Origin: Actibacterium ureilyticum
Lineage (GTDB): Bacteria > Pseudomonadota > Alphaproteobacteria > Rhodobacterales > Rhodobacteraceae
Length of the DNA stretch: 64,000 bases
NCBI RefSeq assembly: GCF_002285435.1
Contig: NZ_NSBT01000036.1
Span: 1 to 64,000 of the forward strand
Direction of reading: 5' to 3'
Part shown: positions 53,030 through 63,404 of the stretch, one piece after another
Layout: each line of letters begins with the position of its first letter
Position numbering within the stretch: the first letter of the stretch is position 1
The notes under the pieces: model-generated
The model's input: only the letters and a program-made list of their open reading frames with translations
Database searches by the model: none
What the model was told of the DNA's origin: nothing
Program-made: the position numbers and the translations under genes

Positions 53030-54094
53030 CTAATCCCCCGACGCATCCCCGATCGACGTGACCTGCGACAGCAGGGTTTCGGTCGCCGAAAGCCCGCGCG
53101 CCGTGGCCATGCAGATCTGCGGCAGCACCAGCCATTCCAGCGTCCAGGCGCTGCCGGAGCGGTCCTGTTCGTGGATCATCGCCTGATGCAGCAGCCCGAT
53201 CTGCCCCGCGTTGAACCGCGCCAGCGTCACCAGAAGCTCTGCCAGGATCGGGTTCTGCTTGTGCGGCATGGCCGACGAGCCGCCGCCGCCCGCAACCGTC
53301 ATCGCGTCGATGCCTTGCTGGGTCATCAGCGCGATATCCTGACCGATCTTGCCCAGGCTCCCGCTGATCGCGGCCATCAGCCCGCCATAGGCGACGATGG
53401 GCGCGCGGTTCACATGCCAGGCCCGCGCCGGGTCGCCCAGACCCAGTTGCCGCGCCATGTCGGCGGCAATCGCGTCGCCCGCATCGCCGAACCCCGCGCG
53501 GTTGCCCACCGCGCCGCCCAGTTGCAGCAACTCGACCCCGGGGCGCAGATCGCGCAGCGCGGCGATGTGGTCTTCGACCGCGATCCGCCAGGGCGCAAGC
53601 CGGTCGGCCACCTGCATCGGCAGCGCCGCCTGCATCCGCGTGCGGCCCATCAGCGGGTTCGCGCCAAAGGCCTGCTCCAACGCCTCGACCTGATGGGCGA
53701 TGGCGGCCAGACGCCCGGCAACCAGATCCGACATGTCGCGCAGGATCAGCACCGTGGCGGTGTCGATCACATCTTGCGAGGTCGCGCCGGTATGCACCAG
53801 CTTGGCATCCTGCCCCACGGCACCGCGCAGCTGCCGGATCAGCTCCGGCACCGGCAGGCCATCGCCCCCGGTCGCGGCGCTTAGCGCGCCCATGTCGGGC
53901 GAAAAACCGTCGATCTGCCAGGCGACAGCTTCACAGGCGTCGGGCGCAGCCTGCCCCACCGCCCCCATGGCGCGGGTCAGGGCGGCTTCGAACCGCAGCA
54001 TCGCCTGTATCTGGCGGTCCGGAGACCAGATCGCCGCCGCGTCGTCATCGCCGATCAGGCCCCAGAGCCAGCTTTGTTCCAATGCCGGGATCAC
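53030..54094 (-). CDS. pcaB: 3-carboxy-cis,cis-muconate cycloisomerase
   Basis: Enzyme of 354 aa of the fumarase/aspartase/argininosuccinate lyase superfamily. It cyclises 3-carboxymuconate to 4-carboxymuconolactone in protocatechuate breakdown. The superfamily signature GGGGSSAMPHKQNP and the upstream HTGATSQDV motif are present. Pseudomonas PcaB has about 450 residues, so the C-terminal domain is largely missing here. The frame starts with GTG at 54094, overlapping the pcaD stop by 4 nt (GTGA), so translation is coupled. It is the last gene of pobA-pcaCHGDB and ends 4 nt from the SRP RNA. Confidence 0.92.
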   Translation of the reverse strand: MIPALEQSWLWGLIGDDDAAAIWSPDRQIQAMLRFEAALTRAMGAVGQAAPDACEAVAWQIDGFSPDMGALSAATGGDGLPVPELIRQLRGAVGQDAKLVHTGATSQDVIDTATVLILRDMSDLVAGRLAAIAHQVEALEQAFGANPLMGRTRMQAALPMQVADRLAPWRIAVEDHIAALRDLRPGVELLQLGGAVGNRAGFGDAGDAIAADMARQLGLGDPARAWHVNRAPIVAYGGLMAAISGSLGKIGQDIALMTQQGIDAMTVAGGGGSSAMPHKQNPILAELLVTLARFNAGQIGLLHQAMIHEQDRSGSAWTLEWLVLPQICMATARGLSATETLLSQVTSIGDASGD

Positions 54095-54876
54095 ATCATG
54101 CCCTCGTAAAGCGCCATCAGGATTTCGGCCACTTTCTCAGGTGCTTCAATGGATGGCAAATGCCCCACCCCGGCGATCTCGGAAAATTGTGCGCCGTCGA
54201 TCAGATCGGCCAGCCCGCCCACCACGTCGGTTGGGGTCGCCTGATCGGCGCTTCCTGCGATACAGGCCACCGGAAGCTGAAGCGCACGGGTGCTTTCGGT
54301 CAGGTCCGCGTCGCGTACCGCACGACACGCGGCGACATACCCACCCAGCGGCGTGCGGACCAGCATGTTGCGATAGCCCGCCACCGCCGCTGGCTGTCCC
54401 GACAGGAAGCCGGGCGAGAACCAACGCTCCAGCACCGCGTCCGCCATCGGGGCGATGCCGCCCTGCTCCAGCGCCGCGATGCGGGTGTCCCACATCTCGG
54501 GCGTGCCGATCCGCGCGGCGGTGTTCGACAGGATCAGACCGGCAATCAGGTCGGGCCGGTGCGCGGCCATGTGCTGGCCGATCTGCCCGCCCATCGACAC
54601 CCCGCAGAACAGCGCGCCCGAAAGCCCGCAGTGATCCATCACCCCGGCCATGTCGGCGGCGTGATCGGCGATGCTGCTGGCGCCGGTGTCGGACAACCCG
54701 TGACCGGATTTGTCCATGCACAGCACCGGCAGCTCGGCAGGCAGACGCGCGATTACCCCGTCCCAGATCCGCAGATCGGTGCCCAGCGAATTGGCAAACA
54801 CCACCGGACGCGCGCCGGCCCGCCCGGGCCGGAACGCCACATGCAGCACCCGCTGGCCGATCCTTACGAATTCCAT
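54091..54876 (-). CDS. pcaD: 3-oxoadipate enol-lactonase
   Basis: Alpha/beta hydrolase of 261 aa that opens 3-oxoadipate enol-lactone to 3-oxoadipate. The nucleophile elbow is CGVSMGG with S94, the histidine is in GVGHLPSIE near residue 238 and the typical FANSLGTDLRIWD block lies near the N-terminus. The ATG at 54876 follows AGGAG. It is 25 nt after pcaG and coupled to pcaB. Confidence 0.93.
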   Translation of the reverse strand: MEFVRIGQRVLHVAFRPGRAGARPVVFANSLGTDLRIWDGVIARLPAELPVLCMDKSGHGLSDTGASSIADHAADMAGVMDHCGLSGALFCGVSMGGQIGQHMAAHRPDLIAGLILSNTAARIGTPEMWDTRIAALEQGGIAPMADAVLERWFSPGFLSGQPAAVAGYRNMLVRTPLGGYVAACRAVRDADLTESTRALQLPVACIAGSADQATPTDVVGGLADLIDGAQFSEIAGVGHLPSIEAPEKVAEILMALYEGMM

Positions 54877-54901: not shown

Positions 54902-55597
54902 TCAGATGTCGAAGAATACCGTCTCGCCCTCGCCCTGAAGCCGGATGTCGAAACGATAGACCTGCACGCCATCGCGCATCCCGGCCTGTTTCGCGATCAG
55001 CGTCGGGCGGCGGCTTTCCCATTCGATCAGGTTCAGCACCGGATCGGTGGCGTTCGCCGCGCCCTCGTCTTCGAAATACATCCTTGTGTTCAGCCCGATA
55101 TTGATGCCACGCGCGACAATCCACAGGTTGATATGCGGGGCCATGTCGTGATGCGCCTCGTCCGCGCGGCCCTGCCAGTCGTCATTGGCATGCGCGGGCG
55201 GGTGCAGCGGCCCCGACCCCAGCTTGCGCCGCGCGCGCACGGGCCCGGGCTTCACGGTGTCGAAGCCCCATTCGCCGGTCTCGAAATCGGTGATGACCCG
55301 GCCCCAGCCGCGAAAGCCGTCCTCGACTTCGCCGCCGCCTTCGGGATGGGCATAGATGCCGGCGGCATTGGCCTGCCAGGCCTCGATCAGCACGTCCTTG
55401 ACCGGGTTGCCGGTGCCGTCGATCACCACGCCCTCGACCCGGATGCGTTCGCCCTTGGCATTCGGCCCGGCAATGTCCCAGCCCAGTTCCTGGCGATAGA
55501 TGTCGAAACCCGCCGCGCCGGGGGCCAGCCCGATATGCACATAAGGACCGGCGGTCTGCGATGGGGTTTCCTTCAGATAATCCAGACGCTGCACCAT
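54902..55597 (-). CDS. pcaG: Protocatechuate 3,4-dioxygenase alpha subunit
   Basis: Subunit of 231 aa of the intradiol dioxygenase that cleaves protocatechuate to 3-carboxymuconate. It shares the fold of PcaH but lacks the full set of iron ligands. The SQTAGPYVHIGLAPG segment near the N-terminus and VLIEAWQANAAGIY are family features. It is slightly longer than the Pseudomonas alpha subunit (about 200 aa), with an insertion around residues 120-145. It lies 2 nt after pcaH. Confidence 0.93.
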   Translation of the reverse strand: MVQRLDYLKETPSQTAGPYVHIGLAPGAAGFDIYRQELGWDIAGPNAKGERIRVEGVVIDGTGNPVKDVLIEAWQANAAGIYAHPEGGGEVEDGFRGWGRVITDFETGEWGFDTVKPGPVRARRKLGSGPLHPPAHANDDWQGRADEAHHDMAPHINLWIVARGINIGLNTRMYFEDEGAANATDPVLNLIEWESRRPTLIAKQAGMRDGVQVYRFDIRLQGEGETVFFDI

Positions 55598-55599
55598 GA

Positions 55600-56708
<1,109 letters not shown>

Positions 56709-56741: not shown

Positions 56742-57911
56742 TCAATAGGGCAAACCCACATAGTTTTCGGCCATCGCCTGTTGCGCCGCGCTGTTGTCGC
56801 GCAGGAATTCCAGCTCGGCGATCTGCATCTTCAGGTCGAATGCCGTCTGTTCGGGATACCGATGCAGCAGTGACGAGAACCACCACGAGAACCGCTCGGC
56901 CTTCCAGATGCGTTTCAATGCCTTTTCGGAATAGCTGTCGATCCCCTGCGCGGAGCCGTCCTCGTAGAATGCCCGCAACCCGTTATACAGGTAATGGATG
57001 TCCGACGCCGCGGTGTTCAGCCCCTTGGCTCCGGTGGGCGGCACGATATGCGCGGCGTCCCCGCACAGGAACAACCGGCCCCAGCGCATCGGCTCGGTCA
57101 CAAAGGACCGCAGCGGCGCGATGGATTTTTCGATCGACGGGCCGGTGACCAGCTTGTCGGCCATATCGGCGGGGATGCGGCGTTTCAACTCGGCCCAGAA
57201 ATCATCGTCGCTCCAATCGCCGGGCGCGTCGGTCAGCGGGCACTGGATGTAATAGCGGCTGAGGTTTTCGTTGCGCATCGAACACAGCGCGAAGCCGCGC
57301 GGCGAATTGGCATAGATCAGCTCGTGATGCACCGGCGGGGTTTCCGACAGCACACCCAGCCAACCAAAGGGATAGACCTTTTCGTATTCGCGGCGCACGG
57401 TCTCGGGGATGGTCTTGCGGCTGACTCCGTGAAACCCGTCGCAGCCCGCCACGAAATCGCATTCGATCCGCCGCGCCGCGCCGTCCACGGTATAGCTCAC
57501 CGCCGGGGCATCGGTATCGGCGCCGTGGATCGTGACATCCTCGACCTGATATTCGATCTTGCCACCGGCCTTTTCGCGCGCGGCATACAGGTCGCGGGTC
57601 AGTTCGGTCTGGCCATAGACGATGACCGGCGTTCCGGTCAGCCCGGCGAAATCGACACGAAACATCGTGTCGCCAAAGGACACCATGGTGCCGTCATGCA
57701 CGTGACCCTCGGCATGCATCCGGTCGGCGCAGCCGGCTTCCTCCATCAGCGCGACCAGACCACGTTCCAGCACGCCCGCGCGGATCCGGCCCAGGACATA
57801 GTCCTTTGTCTTGCGCTCCAGCACGACGCTGTCGATCCCGCGCCGGTGCAGAAGCTGCGACAGCAAAAGCCCGGACGGCCCTGCACCGATGATGGCAACC
57901 TGCGTTTTCAT
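56742..57911 (-). CDS. pobA: 4-hydroxybenzoate 3-monooxygenase
   Basis: FAD-dependent hydroxylase of 389 aa that converts 4-hydroxybenzoate to protocatechuate with NADPH and oxygen. The dinucleotide motif IIGAGPSGLLLSQLL is at residues 7-21, RIRAGVLE near 43 is a substrate/flavin contact and the second FAD motif LFLCGDAAHIVPPTGAKG lies near 280. It is the first gene of the pca operon, so protocatechuate is made and degraded from one transcript. It is divergent from pcaQ, with a palindrome in the 84-bp gap. Confidence 0.95.
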   Translation of the reverse strand: MKTQVAIIGAGPSGLLLSQLLHRRGIDSVVLERKTKDYVLGRIRAGVLERGLVALMEEAGCADRMHAEGHVHDGTMVSFGDTMFRVDFAGLTGTPVIVYGQTELTRDLYAAREKAGGKIEYQVEDVTIHGADTDAPAVSYTVDGAARRIECDFVAGCDGFHGVSRKTIPETVRREYEKVYPFGWLGVLSETPPVHHELIYANSPRGFALCSMRNENLSRYYIQCPLTDAPGDWSDDDFWAELKRRIPADMADKLVTGPSIEKSIAPLRSFVTEPMRWGRLFLCGDAAHIVPPTGAKGLNTAASDIHYLYNGLRAFYEDGSAQGIDSYSEKALKRIWKAERFSWWFSSLLHRYPEQTAFDLKMQIAELEFLRDNSAAQQAMAENYVGLPY

Positions 57912-57944: not shown

Positions 57945-57956
57945 ATAATCAATTAT
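57945..57956. promoter_or_regulatory. Candidate LysR-type (PcaQ) operator
   Basis: ATAATCAATTAT, with arms ATAAT and ATTAT around two bases, lies in the pobA-pcaQ gap. The T-rich/A-rich inverted symmetry is what LysR regulators bind. It is not a close copy of the published PcaQ site of Sinorhizobium, so the assignment is tentative. Confidence 0.4.
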
Positions 57957-57995
57957 GGAAAGTAAAATGACTTCTGATTGGATTTGATTTCCAAT

Positions 57996-58949
57996 ATGGC
58001 AACAAACAAGGCCAAACAGATCAAGATGCGGCACCTGTCGGCCTTCGTGGAATCCACGCGCGCCGGGTCGCTGAAGCTGGCCGCCGAACGTCTGTTCCTG
58101 ACCCAACCGGCGATTTCCAAGACCCTGAAGGACCTTGAGGAGATCCTGGGCGTCAGCCTGATGGACCGGGGCCGCGGCGGGCTGAGCCTGACGCGCGAGG
58201 GCGAGGTTCTGCTGCCCTTCGCCGAACAAAGCCTGGCCGCGCTGGAACACGGGCTGTCCAGCCTGGAAGCGATCAATGCGGGCGATGCCAGCCCGCTGCG
58301 CGTGGGGGCGTTGCCGTCGGTCGCGGCGGACCTGCTGCCGGTCGCGGTGGATGTCTTTGCCCGGCTGTCGCCTGCAACCCCCGTCACCGTGGAAGAGGGG
58401 CGCATCAGCTCGATGCTGGAACATCTGCGGATGGGCTATCTGGAATTCGTGATCGGCCGCCTGGGCAAGCCCGAGACCATGATCGGCCTGAGCTTTACCC
58501 AGCTTTATGCGGAAAACGTCGTCTTTGCGGTGGCGGCGGATCACCCGCTGGCGCAGGGATGCGAGCTTGAGGATATCGCCAACTGGCTGGTGCTGTACCC
58601 GCCCGCGACCGCCGCGATCCGGTCCTTTGTCGACCGGTTCATGATCACCAAGGGGATCGGGCGGCTGCCCGACCGGCTGGACACCGTTTCCGGCGCCTTC
58701 GGGCGGTCGATGACCCTGGGTCCGCGCAAGGCGATCTGGATCATCTCCGAAGGCGTGGTGTCGCGCGATATCGCGGCCGGGCGCATGGTGGCGCTGCCGC
58801 TCGACACCTCGGCGATGGCCGGGCCGATCGGGATCATGGCCCGCTCCGAGGAAGACCCGACGCCGCCCATGCGCCTGTTCCGACAGGCATTGCTGGCCGC
58901 CCGCGATCAGACGCGAGGGCTGGCCGAACCCTCAACCGAAACCCCGTAA
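57996..58949 (+). CDS. pcaQ: LysR-family regulator PcaQ
   Basis: Regulator of 317 aa. The N-terminal winged helix-turn-helix contains RLFLTQPAISKTLKDLEE, and an effector-binding domain follows from about residue 90. The helix and the following RGRGGLSLTREGEVLLPFAEQ segment resemble PcaQ, which activates pca genes in response to 3-carboxymuconate or the muconolactone in rhizobia. It is divergent from pobA. I use the ATG at 57996; a TTG at 57978 would add six residues. Downstream, 16 nt away, is the BKACE gene, likely in the same unit. Confidence 0.88.
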   Translation: MATNKAKQIKMRHLSAFVESTRAGSLKLAAERLFLTQPAISKTLKDLEEILGVSLMDRGRGGLSLTREGEVLLPFAEQSLAALEHGLSSLEAINAGDASPLRVGALPSVAADLLPVAVDVFARLSPATPVTVEEGRISSMLEHLRMGYLEFVIGRLGKPETMIGLSFTQLYAENVVFAVAADHPLAQGCELEDIANWLVLYPPATAAIRSFVDRFMITKGIGRLPDRLDTVSGAFGRSMTLGPRKAIWIISEGVVSRDIAAGRMVALPLDTSAMAGPIGIMARSEEDPTPPMRLFRQALLAARDQTRGLAEPSTETP

Positions 58950-58965
58950 CCACAGGCTGACCTTA

Positions 58966-59805
58966 ATGTCCCAGACCCCCTGCATCATCTGCGTGGCGAT
59001 CACCGGATCGCTGCCGCAGAAATCCGACAACCCCGCCGTGCCGATCACGGTCGGCGAACAGGTCGAAAGCACGCATGAAGCGTTCGAGGCTGGCGCCGCC
59101 ATCGTTCACGCCCATGTCCGCAACGACGATGGCACGCCCAGTTCCGACCCCGAGAAATTCGCCCGCCTGAAAGAGGGGCTGGAAAAGCACTGCCCGGGGA
59201 TGATCATCCAGTTTTCAACCGGCGGGCGCTCTGGCGCGGGACAGACCCGTGGCGGGATGCTGCCGCTGCAACCGGACATGGCCTCGCTTTCCGTAGGGTC
59301 GAACAATTTCCCGACCCGCGTCTACGAGAACCCGCCGGATCTGGTGCAATGGCTGGCCAGCGAGATGGTCGAACACGGCGTAAAGCCCGAGATCGAGGCC
59401 TTTGACCTGAGCCATATCCTGCAGGCAAAGGCAATGTGGGAACGCGGCGAGATTGCGGAACGCCCCTATGTGCAATTCGTGATGGGGGTCAAGAACGCCA
59501 TGACCGTCGATCGCGATGTATTCGAATACTATATCCACACGGTCAAGCGGCTGTTCGGCGCGGATGTGCCCTGGTGCGCCGCCGGGATCGGGCGCGAGCA
59601 GATCACACTGAACGACTGGGCCGTCAGCAACGGTGGCCATGCCCGCACCGGGCTTGAGGACAACGTGCGCCTGAACAAGACGACGCTGGCGCCGTCGAAT
59701 GCCGCGCTGGTGCGCCGCGTGGCCGAGATTTGCGACAAATACGAACGCCCCGTGGCCAGCTGGCAGCAGGCGCGTCAGATCCTGGGCCTTTCGCCCGCGG
59801 CTTAA
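58966..59805 (+). CDS. Beta-keto acid cleavage enzyme (BKACE, DUF849 family)
   Basis: Cytoplasmic zinc enzyme of 279 aa. Members condense a beta-keto acid with acetyl-CoA to give acetoacetate and a new acyl-CoA; the founding member acts in lysine fermentation (Kce). The zinc ligands H48 and H50 (VHAHVR) and E230 (GLEDNVR), and the AITGSLP motif are conserved. Its place beside pcaQ and opposite pobA-pca suggests 3-oxoadipate as substrate, yielding succinyl-CoA and acetoacetate, which would replace PcaIJ and PcaF. That substrate is an inference. Confidence 0.88.
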   Translation: MSQTPCIICVAITGSLPQKSDNPAVPITVGEQVESTHEAFEAGAAIVHAHVRNDDGTPSSDPEKFARLKEGLEKHCPGMIIQFSTGGRSGAGQTRGGMLPLQPDMASLSVGSNNFPTRVYENPPDLVQWLASEMVEHGVKPEIEAFDLSHILQAKAMWERGEIAERPYVQFVMGVKNAMTVDRDVFEYYIHTVKRLFGADVPWCAAGIGREQITLNDWAVSNGGHARTGLEDNVRLNKTTLAPSNAALVRRVAEICDKYERPVASWQQARQILGLSPAA

Positions 59806-60284
59806 TCGCCCGCCCTGGCGTCGCCGGGATCGACCAGCGGCGCCCGGCTCAGGTGGTTGCCCGCATCGGCGGCCTTGGTCGCCAGCCGCAGGAATTCCTG
59901 CTGCTCCTGCGGGTCCAACCCGCCCAGGATGTCCTGTTGCAGATCCTGTACCAGCGGCATCACCCGGGCCAACAGCGCGCGGCCCGGCTCGGTCAGGGTC
60001 GCAACCCGCGCGCGGCGGTCACGCGCGCTGACCTTGCGCGCGACATAGCCCTTTGATTCCAGCCGATCGACCACCCCGCCGATCGTGGCCCGGTCATAGG
60101 CGATCAGCCCCGCCAGGCTGGCCTGATCGATCCCGGGATTGACCCGAATCGCGTTCAGCGCCGCAAATTGCACCGGAGTCAGATCGATTCCGTTGGATTT
60201 CATCCGGTCCTGAAAGATCGATACCGAGATCTGGTTGAGCCGCCGGATCAGGTGGCCCGCCATATTGTAGATTTCCAGTTTCAT
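59802..60284 (-). CDS. MarR-family transcriptional regulator
   Basis: Winged-helix repressor of 160 aa. The N-terminal dimerisation helix starts MAGHLIRRLNQISVSIF, the recognition helix is in DRATIGGVVDRLESKGYV and the wing is in [13 protein letters not shown]. MarR proteins often sense aromatic acids or their CoA esters. It is divergent from the TRAP transporter and monooxygenase genes, so it is their likely repressor; the gap holds clustered half-sites. Its stop overlaps the convergent BKACE stop (shared TTAA). Confidence 0.88.
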   Translation of the reverse strand: MKLEIYNMAGHLIRRLNQISVSIFQDRMKSNGIDLTPVQFAALNAIRVNPGIDQASLAGLIAYDRATIGGVVDRLESKGYVARKVSARDRRARVATLTEPGRALLARVMPLVQDLQQDILGGLDPQEQQEFLRLATKAADAGNHLSRAPLVDPGDARAGD

Positions 60285-60410: not shown

Positions 60411-60431
60411 TTGCGTACGGGAGGAAACGCG

Positions 60432-61457
60432 ATGACTTTCAAATCAGCCCTTTTGGGGACCCTGGCCAGCTGCGCCCTTTTCGCCGGATCGGCCAAGGCC
60501 GAGGATGTCACGCTGCTGATGCACCATTTCCTGTCGCCGGCCGCCAATGCGCACAAGCTGATGCTGCAAGGCTGGGCCGATGACGTGACCGAGGCCAGCG
60601 ATGGCCGCATCAAGGTCGAAATCTTCCCCGCCATGTCGATGGGCGGCAAACCGGGCGAGCTGTACAGCCAGGTGCGCGACGGCACCGCCGATATCGTCTG
60701 GACGCTGCTGGGCTATACCCCCGGCGTCTTCCCCCGGACCGAGGTTTTCGAGCTGCCGACCGTGCATCGCGGCTCGGCCGCGGCCACGACCCAGGCGCTG
60801 AACGCATCGTTCGACCTGCTGGCTGACGATTTCAAGGACATCAAGGTCCTGTTCCTGCACACCCATGACGGCAACCTGATCCATTCGGCCACCAAGCCGG
60901 TCGAAACGCTTGATGACGTTGCGGGCATGAAGCTGCGCACGCCGGGCCGCACCGGCGCCTGGGTGATCGAGGGCATGGGCGCCGAACCCGTGGCCATGCC
61001 GGTGCCCGCCCTGCCCGAGGCGATGTCCAAAGGCGTCGTCGATGGCGCGCTGACCACATACGAGATCGTGCCCGCGCTGAAGCTGCAGGAGCTGGACAAA
61101 TACGTGACCGAGCTGCCCGATGGCGACCGGTTCGGTACCGCCGTCTTCATGCTGGCGATGAACAAAGACACCTATGCCGGGCTTGATGACGAGCTGAAGG
61201 CGGTGATCGACGCCCATGCGCTGACCAATGTCTCGGCCGAGATCGGCCAGATGTGGGAAGGGTTCGAACAAAGCGGCCTGGACGCGCTGGCCGGCAAGGG
61301 GATCACCCCCACCGTTGTCAGTGCCGAGGAAGGCGCCAAGTTCGAGGCCATGAACCAGGCGGTCGTCGACCGCTGGATCGAGGATGTCACCGCACAGGGC
61401 ATCGACGGCGCCGCGCTGGTCGACGCCGCCCGTGCAGCCGTGAACGCCGCGCAGTAA
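60432..61457 (+). CDS. TRAP transporter substrate-binding protein (DctP family)
   Basis: Periplasmic binding protein of 341 aa. The signal peptide TFKSALLGTLASCALFAGSAKA is followed by EDVTLLMHHFLSP, and the family arginine that grips the substrate carboxylate lies in GMKLRTPGRTGAW. A GGGAGG ribosome binding site precedes the ATG at 60432. It belongs to the DctPQM set and is controlled from the MarR region. The neighbouring flavin hydroxylase makes an aromatic acid such as 3-hydroxybenzoate a likely ligand, but this is inferred. Confidence 0.92.
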   Translation: MTFKSALLGTLASCALFAGSAKAEDVTLLMHHFLSPAANAHKLMLQGWADDVTEASDGRIKVEIFPAMSMGGKPGELYSQVRDGTADIVWTLLGYTPGVFPRTEVFELPTVHRGSAAATTQALNASFDLLADDFKDIKVLFLHTHDGNLIHSATKPVETLDDVAGMKLRTPGRTGAWVIEGMGAEPVAMPVPALPEAMSKGVVDGALTTYEIVPALKLQELDKYVTELPDGDRFGTAVFMLAMNKDTYAGLDDELKAVIDAHALTNVSAEIGQMWEGFEQSGLDALAGKGITPTVVSAEEGAKFEAMNQAVVDRWIEDVTAQGIDGAALVDAARAAVNAAQ

Positions 61458-61522: not shown

Positions 61523-62020
61523 ATGACCCGCCTGCTGGAGCGGACCGCCGATCTTTTCGCGCTGATCGGTGGCGCCGTTGTCATCTTTATCGTGCTTGTC
61601 ACGACGCTTAACGCCGGGGCGTTGATCCTGGACCGGATCGCCGGGCTGTTCGGCTCCGATGTCTCGGCCCTGCCCGGGTACGAGGAACTGGTGCGGCTGT
61701 CGATTTCCGTCGCGGCGCTGATGTTCTTTCCCTATTGCCAGATGAAACGCGGGCATGTGGCCGTTGACCTGTTCGTGGCGCGCCTGCCGCAGGTGATCAA
61801 GACCGCGCTGGAACGGGTCTGGCTGCTGCTGACCGCCGGGATCGCGCTGTTCCTGGCCTGGTGGATGGTGCACGGGCTGTTCGAAAAGCGCGACGACGGC
61901 GTGATCACCGGTGTGCTGGGCCTGCCGGAATGGCCGTTCTATGCCCCGGGTATTGCCGCGCTTATCCTGTGGGCCGCCATCGCCCTGACCCAGATCCCGG
62001 GGGCGCGCCATCATGCTTGA
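61523..62020 (+). CDS. TRAP transporter small membrane subunit (DctQ family)
   Basis: Membrane protein of 165 aa with four predicted helices, at about residues 9-31, 58-73, 94-115 and 139-160. It forms the small integral subunit of the tripartite transporter and pairs with the large DctM subunit. The YCQMKRGHVAVDLF motif is typical. AAGGG stands upstream of the ATG at 61523. It overlaps the next gene by 8 nt. Confidence 0.92.
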   Translation: MTRLLERTADLFALIGGAVVIFIVLVTTLNAGALILDRIAGLFGSDVSALPGYEELVRLSISVAALMFFPYCQMKRGHVAVDLFVARLPQVIKTALERVWLLLTAGIALFLAWWMVHGLFEKRDDGVITGVLGLPEWPFYAPGIAALILWAAIALTQIPGARHHA

Positions 62021-63404
62021 TCCCGAAATCATCGGCCTGATCGGCCTGGCCGTTCTGTTCGGCCTGCTGGCGCTGCGGATGCCGGTTGGGCTGGCGATGA
62101 TCTTTGTCGGCATCGGCGGCACCTGGGCGCTGAGCCTTGCGGTGTCTCATGTGCGCTTCGTGCCCTACCTGCGGCAATTCAAGTCGCTGCTGTGGGAAAA
62201 CGTCGCCAGTTACGAGCTGTCGGTGCTGCCGCTGTTCATCCTGATGGGCTTCATCGCCAGCGAGGCACGGTTGAGCCAGGACCTGTTCAAGGGGCTCGAG
62301 GCGCTGTTGGCCAGGCGCCGGGGCGGTGTGGCCATGGCCGCCGTCACCGCCTGTGGCGGTTTCGGTGCCGTCTGCGGCTCCAGCCTGGCGACGGCGGCCA
62401 CCATGGGGCGCGTCGCGCTGCCGGAACTGCTGCGGCTGGGCTATGCGCCGTCGCTTGCCTCGGGCGCGCTGGCGGCTGGCGGCACGCTGGGCATCCTGAT
62501 CCCGCCCTCGGTCGCGCTGGTGATCTATGCGGTGATCGTCGAAGGCTCGATCCTGCAGATGTTCCAGGCCGCGCTGATCCCCGGGCTGATGGCGGTGGCA
62601 ACATTTACCATCGTGATCGCGGTCATGGTCCGCGCGCGCCCCGATCTGGCGCCCGAACCCGGCCCGATGCCCGCCGATGAACGCCGCGCCGCGATCCGGC
62701 GGCTGGTGCCGGTGATCGTGATCTTCGGCGCGATCATCCTTGGCCTGGGGCTGGGCCTGTTCACCCCCACCCCCGCCGCCAGCATCGGTGTCTTCCTGAT
62801 CATGGTCTACGGCTTTGCGCTGAAGTGGATCACCGGCGAGGGGTTGAGCTTTGCCGGGCTGATCGACGCGATCCGCCAGACCGCCGTGACCGCCGGCATG
62901 ATCTATCTGATCCTGTTCGGGGCCGAGGTGCTGAAGGGCTTCTTCACCCGCTCGGGCCTGCCCGCGACCCTGTCGGACTGGGCCATGGCCAGCGGCTTCG
63001 ATCCCTTCGTGGTGCTGATCATCATGCTGGCGATCTTCATGCTGCTGGGCTGTTTCATGGAAAGCCTGGCGATGATCCTGGTGGTGGTGCCGTTCTTCTG
63101 GCCGACCCTCGTGGCGCTGAACGGGGGCGACTATGTCACCGCCGAAACCGCCGCCTATGGCATGGACAACGAAAGCCTGAAGATCTGGTTCGGGATATTG
63201 GCCCTGATCGTGGTCGAACTGGGCCTGATCACCCCGCCCGTGGGGCTGAATGTCTTCATCATCTCGTCGCTCAACCGGGACATCGGCATGGGCACCGTAT
63301 TCAAGGGCGTCACACCGTTTCTGGGCGCCGAACTCGTCCGTGTGGGCATCCTGTTGGCTTTGCCCGCACTTACACTGACCTTGCCGCGATTGCTTGGCGG
63401 CTGA
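62013..63404 (+). CDS. TRAP transporter large permease (DctM family)
   Basis: Integral membrane protein of 463 aa with about twelve helices, the ion-coupled channel of the TRAP system. Family features include LFILMGFIASEARLSQDLF, the CGSSLATAATMGRVALPE segment and GTLGILIPPSVALVIYAV, which form the two hairpin regions near the substrate and sodium sites. A C-terminal LGLITPPVGLNVFII repeat matches the second hairpin. It is translationally coupled to the DctQ gene and followed after 18 nt by a flavin monooxygenase. Confidence 0.95.
   Translation: MLDPEIIGLIGLAVLFGLLALRMPVGLAMIFVGIGGTWALSLAVSHVRFVPYLRQFKSLLWENVASYELSVLPLFILMGFIASEARLSQDLFKGLEALLARRRGGVAMAAVTACGGFGAVCGSSLATAATMGRVALPELLRLGYAPSLASGALAAGGTLGILIPPSVALVIYAVIVEGSILQMFQAALIPGLMAVATFTIVIAVMVRARPDLAPEPGPMPADERRAAIRRLVPVIVIFGAIILGLGLGLFTPTPAASIGVFLIMVYGFALKWITGEGLSFAGLIDAIRQTAVTAGMIYLILFGAEVLKGFFTRSGLPATLSDWAMASGFDPFVVLIIMLAIFMLLGCFMESLAMILVVVPFFWPTLVALNGGDYVTAETAAYGMDNESLKIWFGILALIVVELGLITPPVGLNVFIISSLNRDIGMGTVFKGVTPFLGAELVRVGILLALPALTLTLPRLLGG

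Follow-up and report, generated by a model that had tools for sequence, protein, structure and literature searches.

Enzymes of the BKACE family combine a 3-oxoacid with acetyl-CoA and release an acyl-CoA and acetoacetate. The order of reactions from 4-hydroxybenzoate to 3-oxoadipate is well established, and the only compounds common to the protocatechuate and catechol branches are 3-oxoadipate enol-lactone and 3-oxoadipate. A role for BKACE at the end of these branches has already been proposed, in Betaproteobacteria in 2019 and in Methylobacterium in 2022 and 2025, according to the accessible parts of the papers concerned. In Ralstonia eutropha H16, a COG3246 protein of the catechol branch, linked to catBCD within the CatM/BenM regulon, was predicted to cleave 3-keto acids such as beta-ketoadipate, and its homologues were described as often standing with protocatechuate 3,4-dioxygenase genes (PMC6449761, 2019, in excerpt). 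The Methylobacterium DUF849 gene, kce, lies between pcaG and pcaB in a cluster reported to contain neither pcaIJ nor pcaF (PMC8963497, 2022, in excerpt). Introduction of pcaHGBL and kce, without pcaIJ/pcaF, together with vanABK enabled M. extorquens to grow on protocatechuate, at a slower rate than the donor; the accessible sections describe no control without kce (PMC12379598, 2025). The family's 2014 substrate groups are cited differently in the accessible text of two papers: PMC4922564 places beta-ketoadipate under part of G3 and labels G4 "negatively charged", whereas PMC8963497 gives G4 for beta-ketoadipate.

Available passages of other papers concern the order Rhodobacterales. Phaeobacter, Pseudophaeobacter, Leisingera and Ruegeria were reported to lack pcaIJ, for which a 3-oxoacid CoA-transferase seems to substitute (PMC5064897, 2016). 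In Roseovarius nubinhibens, ISM_RS03130/03135 were named pcaIJ, and a strain edited in ISM_RS03130 did not grow on 4-hydroxybenzoate, which was read as a PcaI phenotype; pcaF did not turn out to be the main thiolase gene, and in the thiolase mutants one acetyl-CoA acetyltransferase gene was raised (PMC12442348, 2025). The main text of that paper, as far as accessible, mentions neither DUF849 nor acetoacetate. Among the openly licensed papers surveyed, we saw no report of BKACE as a pathway end in Rhodobacterales. What this analysis adds is a genome-wide test for the classical genes, a family-wide replacement that includes a swap of genes in one slot, and BKACE-scoAB operons in both branches. 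The BKACE route looks like the usual ending in this bacterial family, where the textbook genes have been reported missing.

Results

We analyzed a 64,000-nucleotide stretch of the Actibacterium ureilyticum genome (the window; Table 1). Its BKACE gene, as initially described, is an intact open frame with an ATG start and 279 codons for amino acids, and the product matches PF05853 over its full length (residues 5-275, E = 4.2e-92, cut-off 24.8 bits). The genes pobA-pcaC-pcaH-pcaG-pcaD-pcaB are transcribed in the opposite direction, from 57911 down to 53030; each passes its own NCBIfam model, pcaB through PRK05975 only, which upholds the gene set first read beside BKACE. The BKACE gene also directly follows pcaQ as stated earlier, with a gap of 16 nt, and stands outside the pca operon proper, on the other strand and behind pcaQ.

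Table 1. Annotated genes around the BKACE gene (window coordinates; scores in bits)
Feature	Position	Strand	Model match
pcaB	53030..54094	-	PRK05975 427.7, cut-off 371; TIGR02426 335.4, below cut-off 355.75
pcaD, 3-oxoadipate enol-lactonase (3-oxoadipate-forming step); start codon picked by eye, listed ORF extends to 54972	54091..54876	-	TIGR02427 286.6, cut-off 255.85
pcaG, protocatechuate 3,4-dioxygenase alpha subunit	54902..55597	-	TIGR02423 233.8, cut-off 126.25
pcaH	55600..56328	-	TIGR02422 381.8, cut-off 296.4
pcaC, 4-carboxymuconolactone decarboxylase	56325..56708	-	TIGR02425 186.8, cut-off 155.7
pobA, 4-hydroxybenzoate 3-monooxygenase	56742..57911	-	TIGR02360 689.4, cut-off 538.7
pcaQ, LysR-type activator of pca genes; start codon picked by eye, listed ORF starts at 57978	57996..58949	+	TIGR02424 343.9, cut-off 303.8
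BKACE, predicted 3-oxoadipate:acetyl-CoA acetyltransferase	58966..59805	+	PF05853 308.8; NF053568 489.1, cut-off 350
MarR-family regulator, convergent with the BKACE gene, 4 nt overlap	59802..60284	-	PF01047 44.2, cut-off 24.6
TRAP transporter binding protein (DctP)	60411..61457	+	PF03480 141.6
TRAP transporter large permease (DctM)	62013..63404	+	PF06808 249.7

From its neighbourhood, the TRAP system is likely to serve aromatic acid uptake; a part for the MarR-family regulator in the 4-hydroxybenzoate pathway is uncertain. Matches to ATAACC-N4-GGTTAT, which we take to be the PcaQ consensus, numbered 10 in the window at up to three mismatches (5.4 expected), and none lies between pobA and pcaQ. 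A short inverted repeat, ATAATCAATTAT, is found at 57945-57956 between these divergent genes and is a possible regulator site.

The window protein scores above the cut-off of NF053568, the NCBIfam equivalog named "3-oxoadipate:acetyl-CoA acetyltransferase", and fails the equivalog for Kce of lysine fermentation (NF052387, 247.6 bits, cut-off 382). His48, His50 and Glu231 are invariant in all 148 aligned relatives (135 distinct, members picked by similarity); we take them to be metal ligands, as in the Kce structure. The preliminary description had named H48, H50 and E230: the histidines were right, while residue 230 is Leu and the third ligand is Glu231, the earlier number presumably being that of Kce. 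Arg88 is likewise invariant, one of 98 such positions in this set, and is specific to the subgroup: Met stands there in the paralogue from the same genome, and Ala in Kce in the printed alignment. Arg88 is likely to bind the far (second) carboxylate of 3-oxoadipate. Kce shares the fold family, the histidine pair, the Glu-Asp motif and the reaction class, but it scores only 171 bits and, besides the Ala at the Arg88 position, the printed alignment shows Glu at the Leu16 position. The nearest solved structures are full-length close relatives (PDB 3fa5, 3chv and 3no5, DUF849, 404-496 bits), deposited as unknown function or uncharacterised.

We then asked what the whole genome (4.15 Mb, 46 contigs, 99.89% complete) holds for the classical ending. 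Only two CoA-transferase subunits, an A and a B on contig C18, match PF01144. On TIGR02429 the A subunit reaches 231.5 bits, which places it in a ScoA-like group, compared with 309.9-375 bits for the PcaI group. No CoA-transferase of the PcaI group, nor of the type that stands between pcaG and pcaF in the related locus L191, was found genome-wide with PF01144 and TIGR02429. Because PF01144 does detect this other PcaIJ type (L191/G014; 65.7 and 132.9 bits), such a pair would have shown. No protein exceeds the PcaF cut-off (TIGR02430, 597); at least four thiolases reach about 290-390 bits, of which the best, at 390 bits, is of the BktB type, and the three others checked resemble acetyl-CoA acetyl- or acyltransferases. 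The genome-wide search proposed with the first reading thus returned no PcaF over cut-off and a single, ScoAB-like CoA-transferase pair. The window itself was correctly said to lack pcaI, pcaJ and pcaF, since none of the matches lies on its contig, C29. Acetoacetyl-CoA synthetase is likewise not found over cut-off (TIGR01217, 520.9; best 259.5), so ScoAB stays the likely activator of acetoacetate.

The same genome carries a second BKACE gene, which fails NF053568 (176.5 bits) and lies in a different cluster (L003, contig C16, 1468-2415), adjoining 3-hydroxyacyl-CoA dehydrogenase-like and thioesterase-like ORFs and a divergent regulator; the cluster resembles one for carnitine breakdown. The scoA and scoB genes are split by two other ORFs (L001 369-2208; L002 540-2646), an unusual arrangement in a two-subunit pair; one of the two is presumably GSCFA-like.

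To place the locus among its relatives, we surveyed 198 genomes of the window's bacterial family, one per genus, with four models. Of the 126 genomes with pcaH, 117 have BKACE over its cut-off; of the 72 that lack pcaH, 24 do (Fisher p 5e-19, relatedness ignored). Among the 126, 99 have BKACE without a PcaI-group gene, 18 have both, five have only the PcaI group and four have neither. Of the 114 pcaH genomes with completeness of 90% or more and contamination of 5% or less, 107 have BKACE and seven have PcaIJ; none is without both. Those seven consist of the five PcaI-group genomes and two of the four with "neither" (G014 and G059), in which a different pcaI-pcaJ pair and pcaF stand between pcaG and pcaB, the slot that holds BKACE in many other genomes. 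The G014 pair matches PF01144 and its thiolase passes the PcaF model; in G059, pcaF is over cut-off and the two CoA-transferase ORFs share 67% identity with their G014 counterparts. BKACE was not found in the pca loci of the remaining two genomes (G119, 78% complete; G196, 64% complete). The swapped genes run from 1964 to 4829 in L191 and from 8297 to 11119 in L192; the L191 subunits match PF01144, yet no NCBIfam model at 1e-20.

BKACE and pcaH are also close in many of these genomes. Among the 109 genomes with both genes for which BKACE coordinates are listed, the distance between them is at most 10 kb in 76 and at most 900 bp in 65; the other 33 have no listed BKACE within 10 kb, and in 29 of them the genes are on different contigs. 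The groups used here were defined by TIGR02429 score, without a tree. The PcaI group spans 309.9-375 bits in 29 genomes, with pcaF within 5 kb in 18, and all matches outside it, among those listed (down to 230.7 bits), score at most 267.5. This group replaced pcaF as marker of the classical route: pcaF was dropped after it exceeded its cut-off in 119 of the 198 genomes, including 92 that have no PcaI-group gene. The phenylacetate thiolase may be picked up by the PcaF model as well. A PcaF-model protein is over cut-off in 80 of the 117 genomes with both BKACE and pcaH, so canonical thiolysis is possible there. At three survey loci, the CoA-transferase A beside BKACE is 84-87% identical to ScoA of the window's genome and 44-47% identical to a PcaI-group protein.

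Outside the family the picture changes. Across 241 genomes sampled from the class, 48 have pcaH (47 over cut-off) and 14 have BKACE. Once the four genomes of the window's family are removed, 44 genomes with pcaH and 193 without it remain; by hand count, BKACE is present in 3 of the former and 7 of the latter. Of those 44, 14 have a strong PcaI match, with E values up to 1e-85 and scores down to 296.9 bits. The rarity of BKACE here indicates that the replacement characterises the window's family and a few other groups rather than the class as a whole.

We examined the best 80 named relatives, from at least 579, together with as much as 10 kb of flanking sequence in either direction; they are 78-84% identical to the window protein (one 76%) and form a biased sample. 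A pcaH or pcaG gene is present in 37 loci, and in 36 BKACE is the next gene after pcaG, in the same orientation. A catechol-type dioxygenase is present in 27 loci, one of which also has pcaH. Close homologues thus occur in both branch types, and because the branches share only two intermediates, this narrows the substrate. scoA is found in 23 loci, at most 400 bp downstream of BKACE in 19 of them, and at every CoA-transferase place in the 80 loci ScoA matches at least as well as any PcaI-group query, the latter reaching 198 bits at best. Gene orders include pcaC-pcaH-pcaG-BKACE-CoA-transferase A-B-pcaD-pcaB on Phaeobacter inhibens pP88_d; benD, an ABC transporter, LysR, dioxygenase, hydrolase-BKACE-CoA-transferase A-B-benE on Sulfitobacter CB2047 pSpoCB-3; and pobA-pcaD-C-H-(alpha subunit)-BKACE-lyase-TRAP genes on Paracoccus versutus pTAV3. 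In 16 of the 80 loci, four of which have little sequence on one flank, the surroundings contain no pca, sco or ring-cleavage gene. Together with the 24 of 72 pcaH-negative genomes that carry BKACE, these loci suggest that some members may act otherwise. Loci of the Marivita type (L019, L028, L042, L044, L072 and others) have a BKACE 78-80% identical to that of the window, away from ring-cleavage genes and in some cases near a lytic transglycosylase gene.

Discussion

We propose, with a probability of roughly 0.88, that the window gene encodes a BKACE-family 3-oxoadipate:acetyl-CoA acetyltransferase, predicted to be the committed exit of the protocatechuate branch in this genome. That 3-oxoadipate is the substrate was suggested earlier from gene position; the assignment, still a prediction, now draws on subgroup, context and the exclusion of the classical genes, and is backed by NF053568, the family-wide co-occurrence with pcaH and the swap with pcaIJF. 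Weighing on the other side are the place of the window gene apart from the pca operon, the 18 of 117 genomes that also carry a PcaI-group gene, the 33 of 109 that show no BKACE close to pcaH, and the rarity of BKACE beyond the family. By their family matches, PobA and PcaHG, PcaB, PcaC and PcaD would convert 4-hydroxybenzoate to 3-oxoadipate; BKACE would then turn 3-oxoadipate and acetyl-CoA into succinyl-CoA and acetoacetate. ScoAB, the sole PF01144 CoA-transferase of the genome, would move CoA from succinyl-CoA onto acetoacetate, and an acetyl-CoA acetyltransferase would probably split acetoacetyl-CoA into two acetyl-CoA. The net reaction would be 3-oxoadipate + CoA to succinate + acetyl-CoA, equal to that of PcaIJ plus PcaF, which are unrelated proteins, work by CoA activation and then thiolysis, and occupy the same slot in two related genomes. 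Given this equal sum, the route would trade dedicated enzymes for one dedicated enzyme and general ketone-body enzymes. The idea that BKACE stands in for PcaIJ/PcaF is supported by the equivalog match, the co-occurrence with pcaH and the slot swap; the idea that it finishes the branch in one step is not, because BKACE leaves acetoacetate and uses up acetyl-CoA, so that ScoAB and an acetoacetyl-CoA thiolase are still required.

This raises an obvious question: could ScoAB itself act as PcaIJ, with a general thiolase of the BktB or acetyl-CoA acetyltransferase type as PcaF, and BKACE have only a side activity or another substrate? ScoAB and PcaIJ do fall under one subfamily model (TIGR02429/TIGR02428), and the thiolases with PcaF-model scores of about 290-390 bits are candidates for the second role. 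The loss of growth on 4-hydroxybenzoate in the R. nubinhibens CoA-transferase mutant and the apparent stand-in for pcaIJ in Phaeobacter, Pseudophaeobacter, Leisingera and Ruegeria also agree with such an arrangement, in the accessible text of PMC12442348 and PMC5064897. However, both observations are expected equally if ScoAB uses up acetoacetate made by BKACE, and a PcaIJ role for ScoAB leaves unexplained why BKACE tracks pcaH (117 of 126 genomes) and why it fills the slot held elsewhere by pcaIJF. We therefore consider this explanation improbable.

More doubtful still is that the enzyme cleaves another aromatic-derived 3-oxoacid, for example benzoylacetate or a branched 3-oxoadipate, and that its place beside the pca genes marks a side path. 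The family is promiscuous, benzoylacetate-type activities included (PMC4922564, in excerpt), and the 16 bare loci would suit such a role, but catechol clusters and protocatechuate clusters alike contain homologues with an identity of at least 76%, and NF053568 names 3-oxoadipate. The identification as a 3-keto-5-aminohexanoate cleavage enzyme of lysine fermentation is hardly tenable: homologues bear that name, as protein or enzyme, in 22 of 25 plasmid records listed, but the model scores contradict it, and no lysine-fermentation gene was recognised among ten window proteins scanned. For the window protein the name is unsupported by the curated model, and such naming may have kept the enzyme's role hidden.

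Compared with the closest described system, the window gene resembles Methylobacterium kce in being a DUF849 gene with pca genes in a cluster without pcaI, pcaJ or pcaF; it differs in that it belongs to a Rhodobacterales genome and comes after pcaQ, transcribed oppositely to the pca genes, instead of lying between pcaG and pcaB, and here the absence of pcaIJ/pcaF was checked genome-wide (comparison with the accessible text of PMC8963497 and PMC12379598). The R. eutropha H16 protein is alike in its predicted 3-keto acid cleavage and differs in its catechol-branch setting (PMC6449761, in excerpt).

Whether BKACE, ScoAB and acetoacetyl-CoA thiolase, and not PcaIJ/PcaF, form the standard end of both branches of the beta-ketoadipate pathway throughout Rhodobacterales seems to us evenly balanced. 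If so, the R. nubinhibens "PcaIJ" and the compensating acetyl-CoA acetyltransferase would be the acetoacetate-handling half of the route, as would the 3-oxoacid CoA-transferase of Phaeobacter, Leisingera and Ruegeria in the 2016 paper. The CoA-transferase results in the available text of PMC12442348 and PMC5064897 fit a role of ScoAB in the BKACE route, though they were published otherwise.

Most sampled pcaH genomes of the window's family have BKACE without a PcaI-group gene, which suggests a reason for the missing textbook genes. The BKACE route may thus explain the "missing pcaIJ" of marine Roseobacters, which we take to belong to this family in GTDB. The accessible part of PMC9873259 applies PcaIJ/PcaF labels to the benzoate plasmid of Sulfitobacter D7 and reports CatC as not found there; in the available gene table, which is incomplete, the D7 cluster has the dioxygenase and hydrolase with no annotated BKACE or CoA-transferase adjoining, and it speaks neither for nor against the proposed route. 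In two benzoate clusters a small hypothetical ORF lies between the catechol dioxygenase and the hydrolase (L213 7524-7904; L214 8089-8469) and could encode muconolactone isomerase (CatC).
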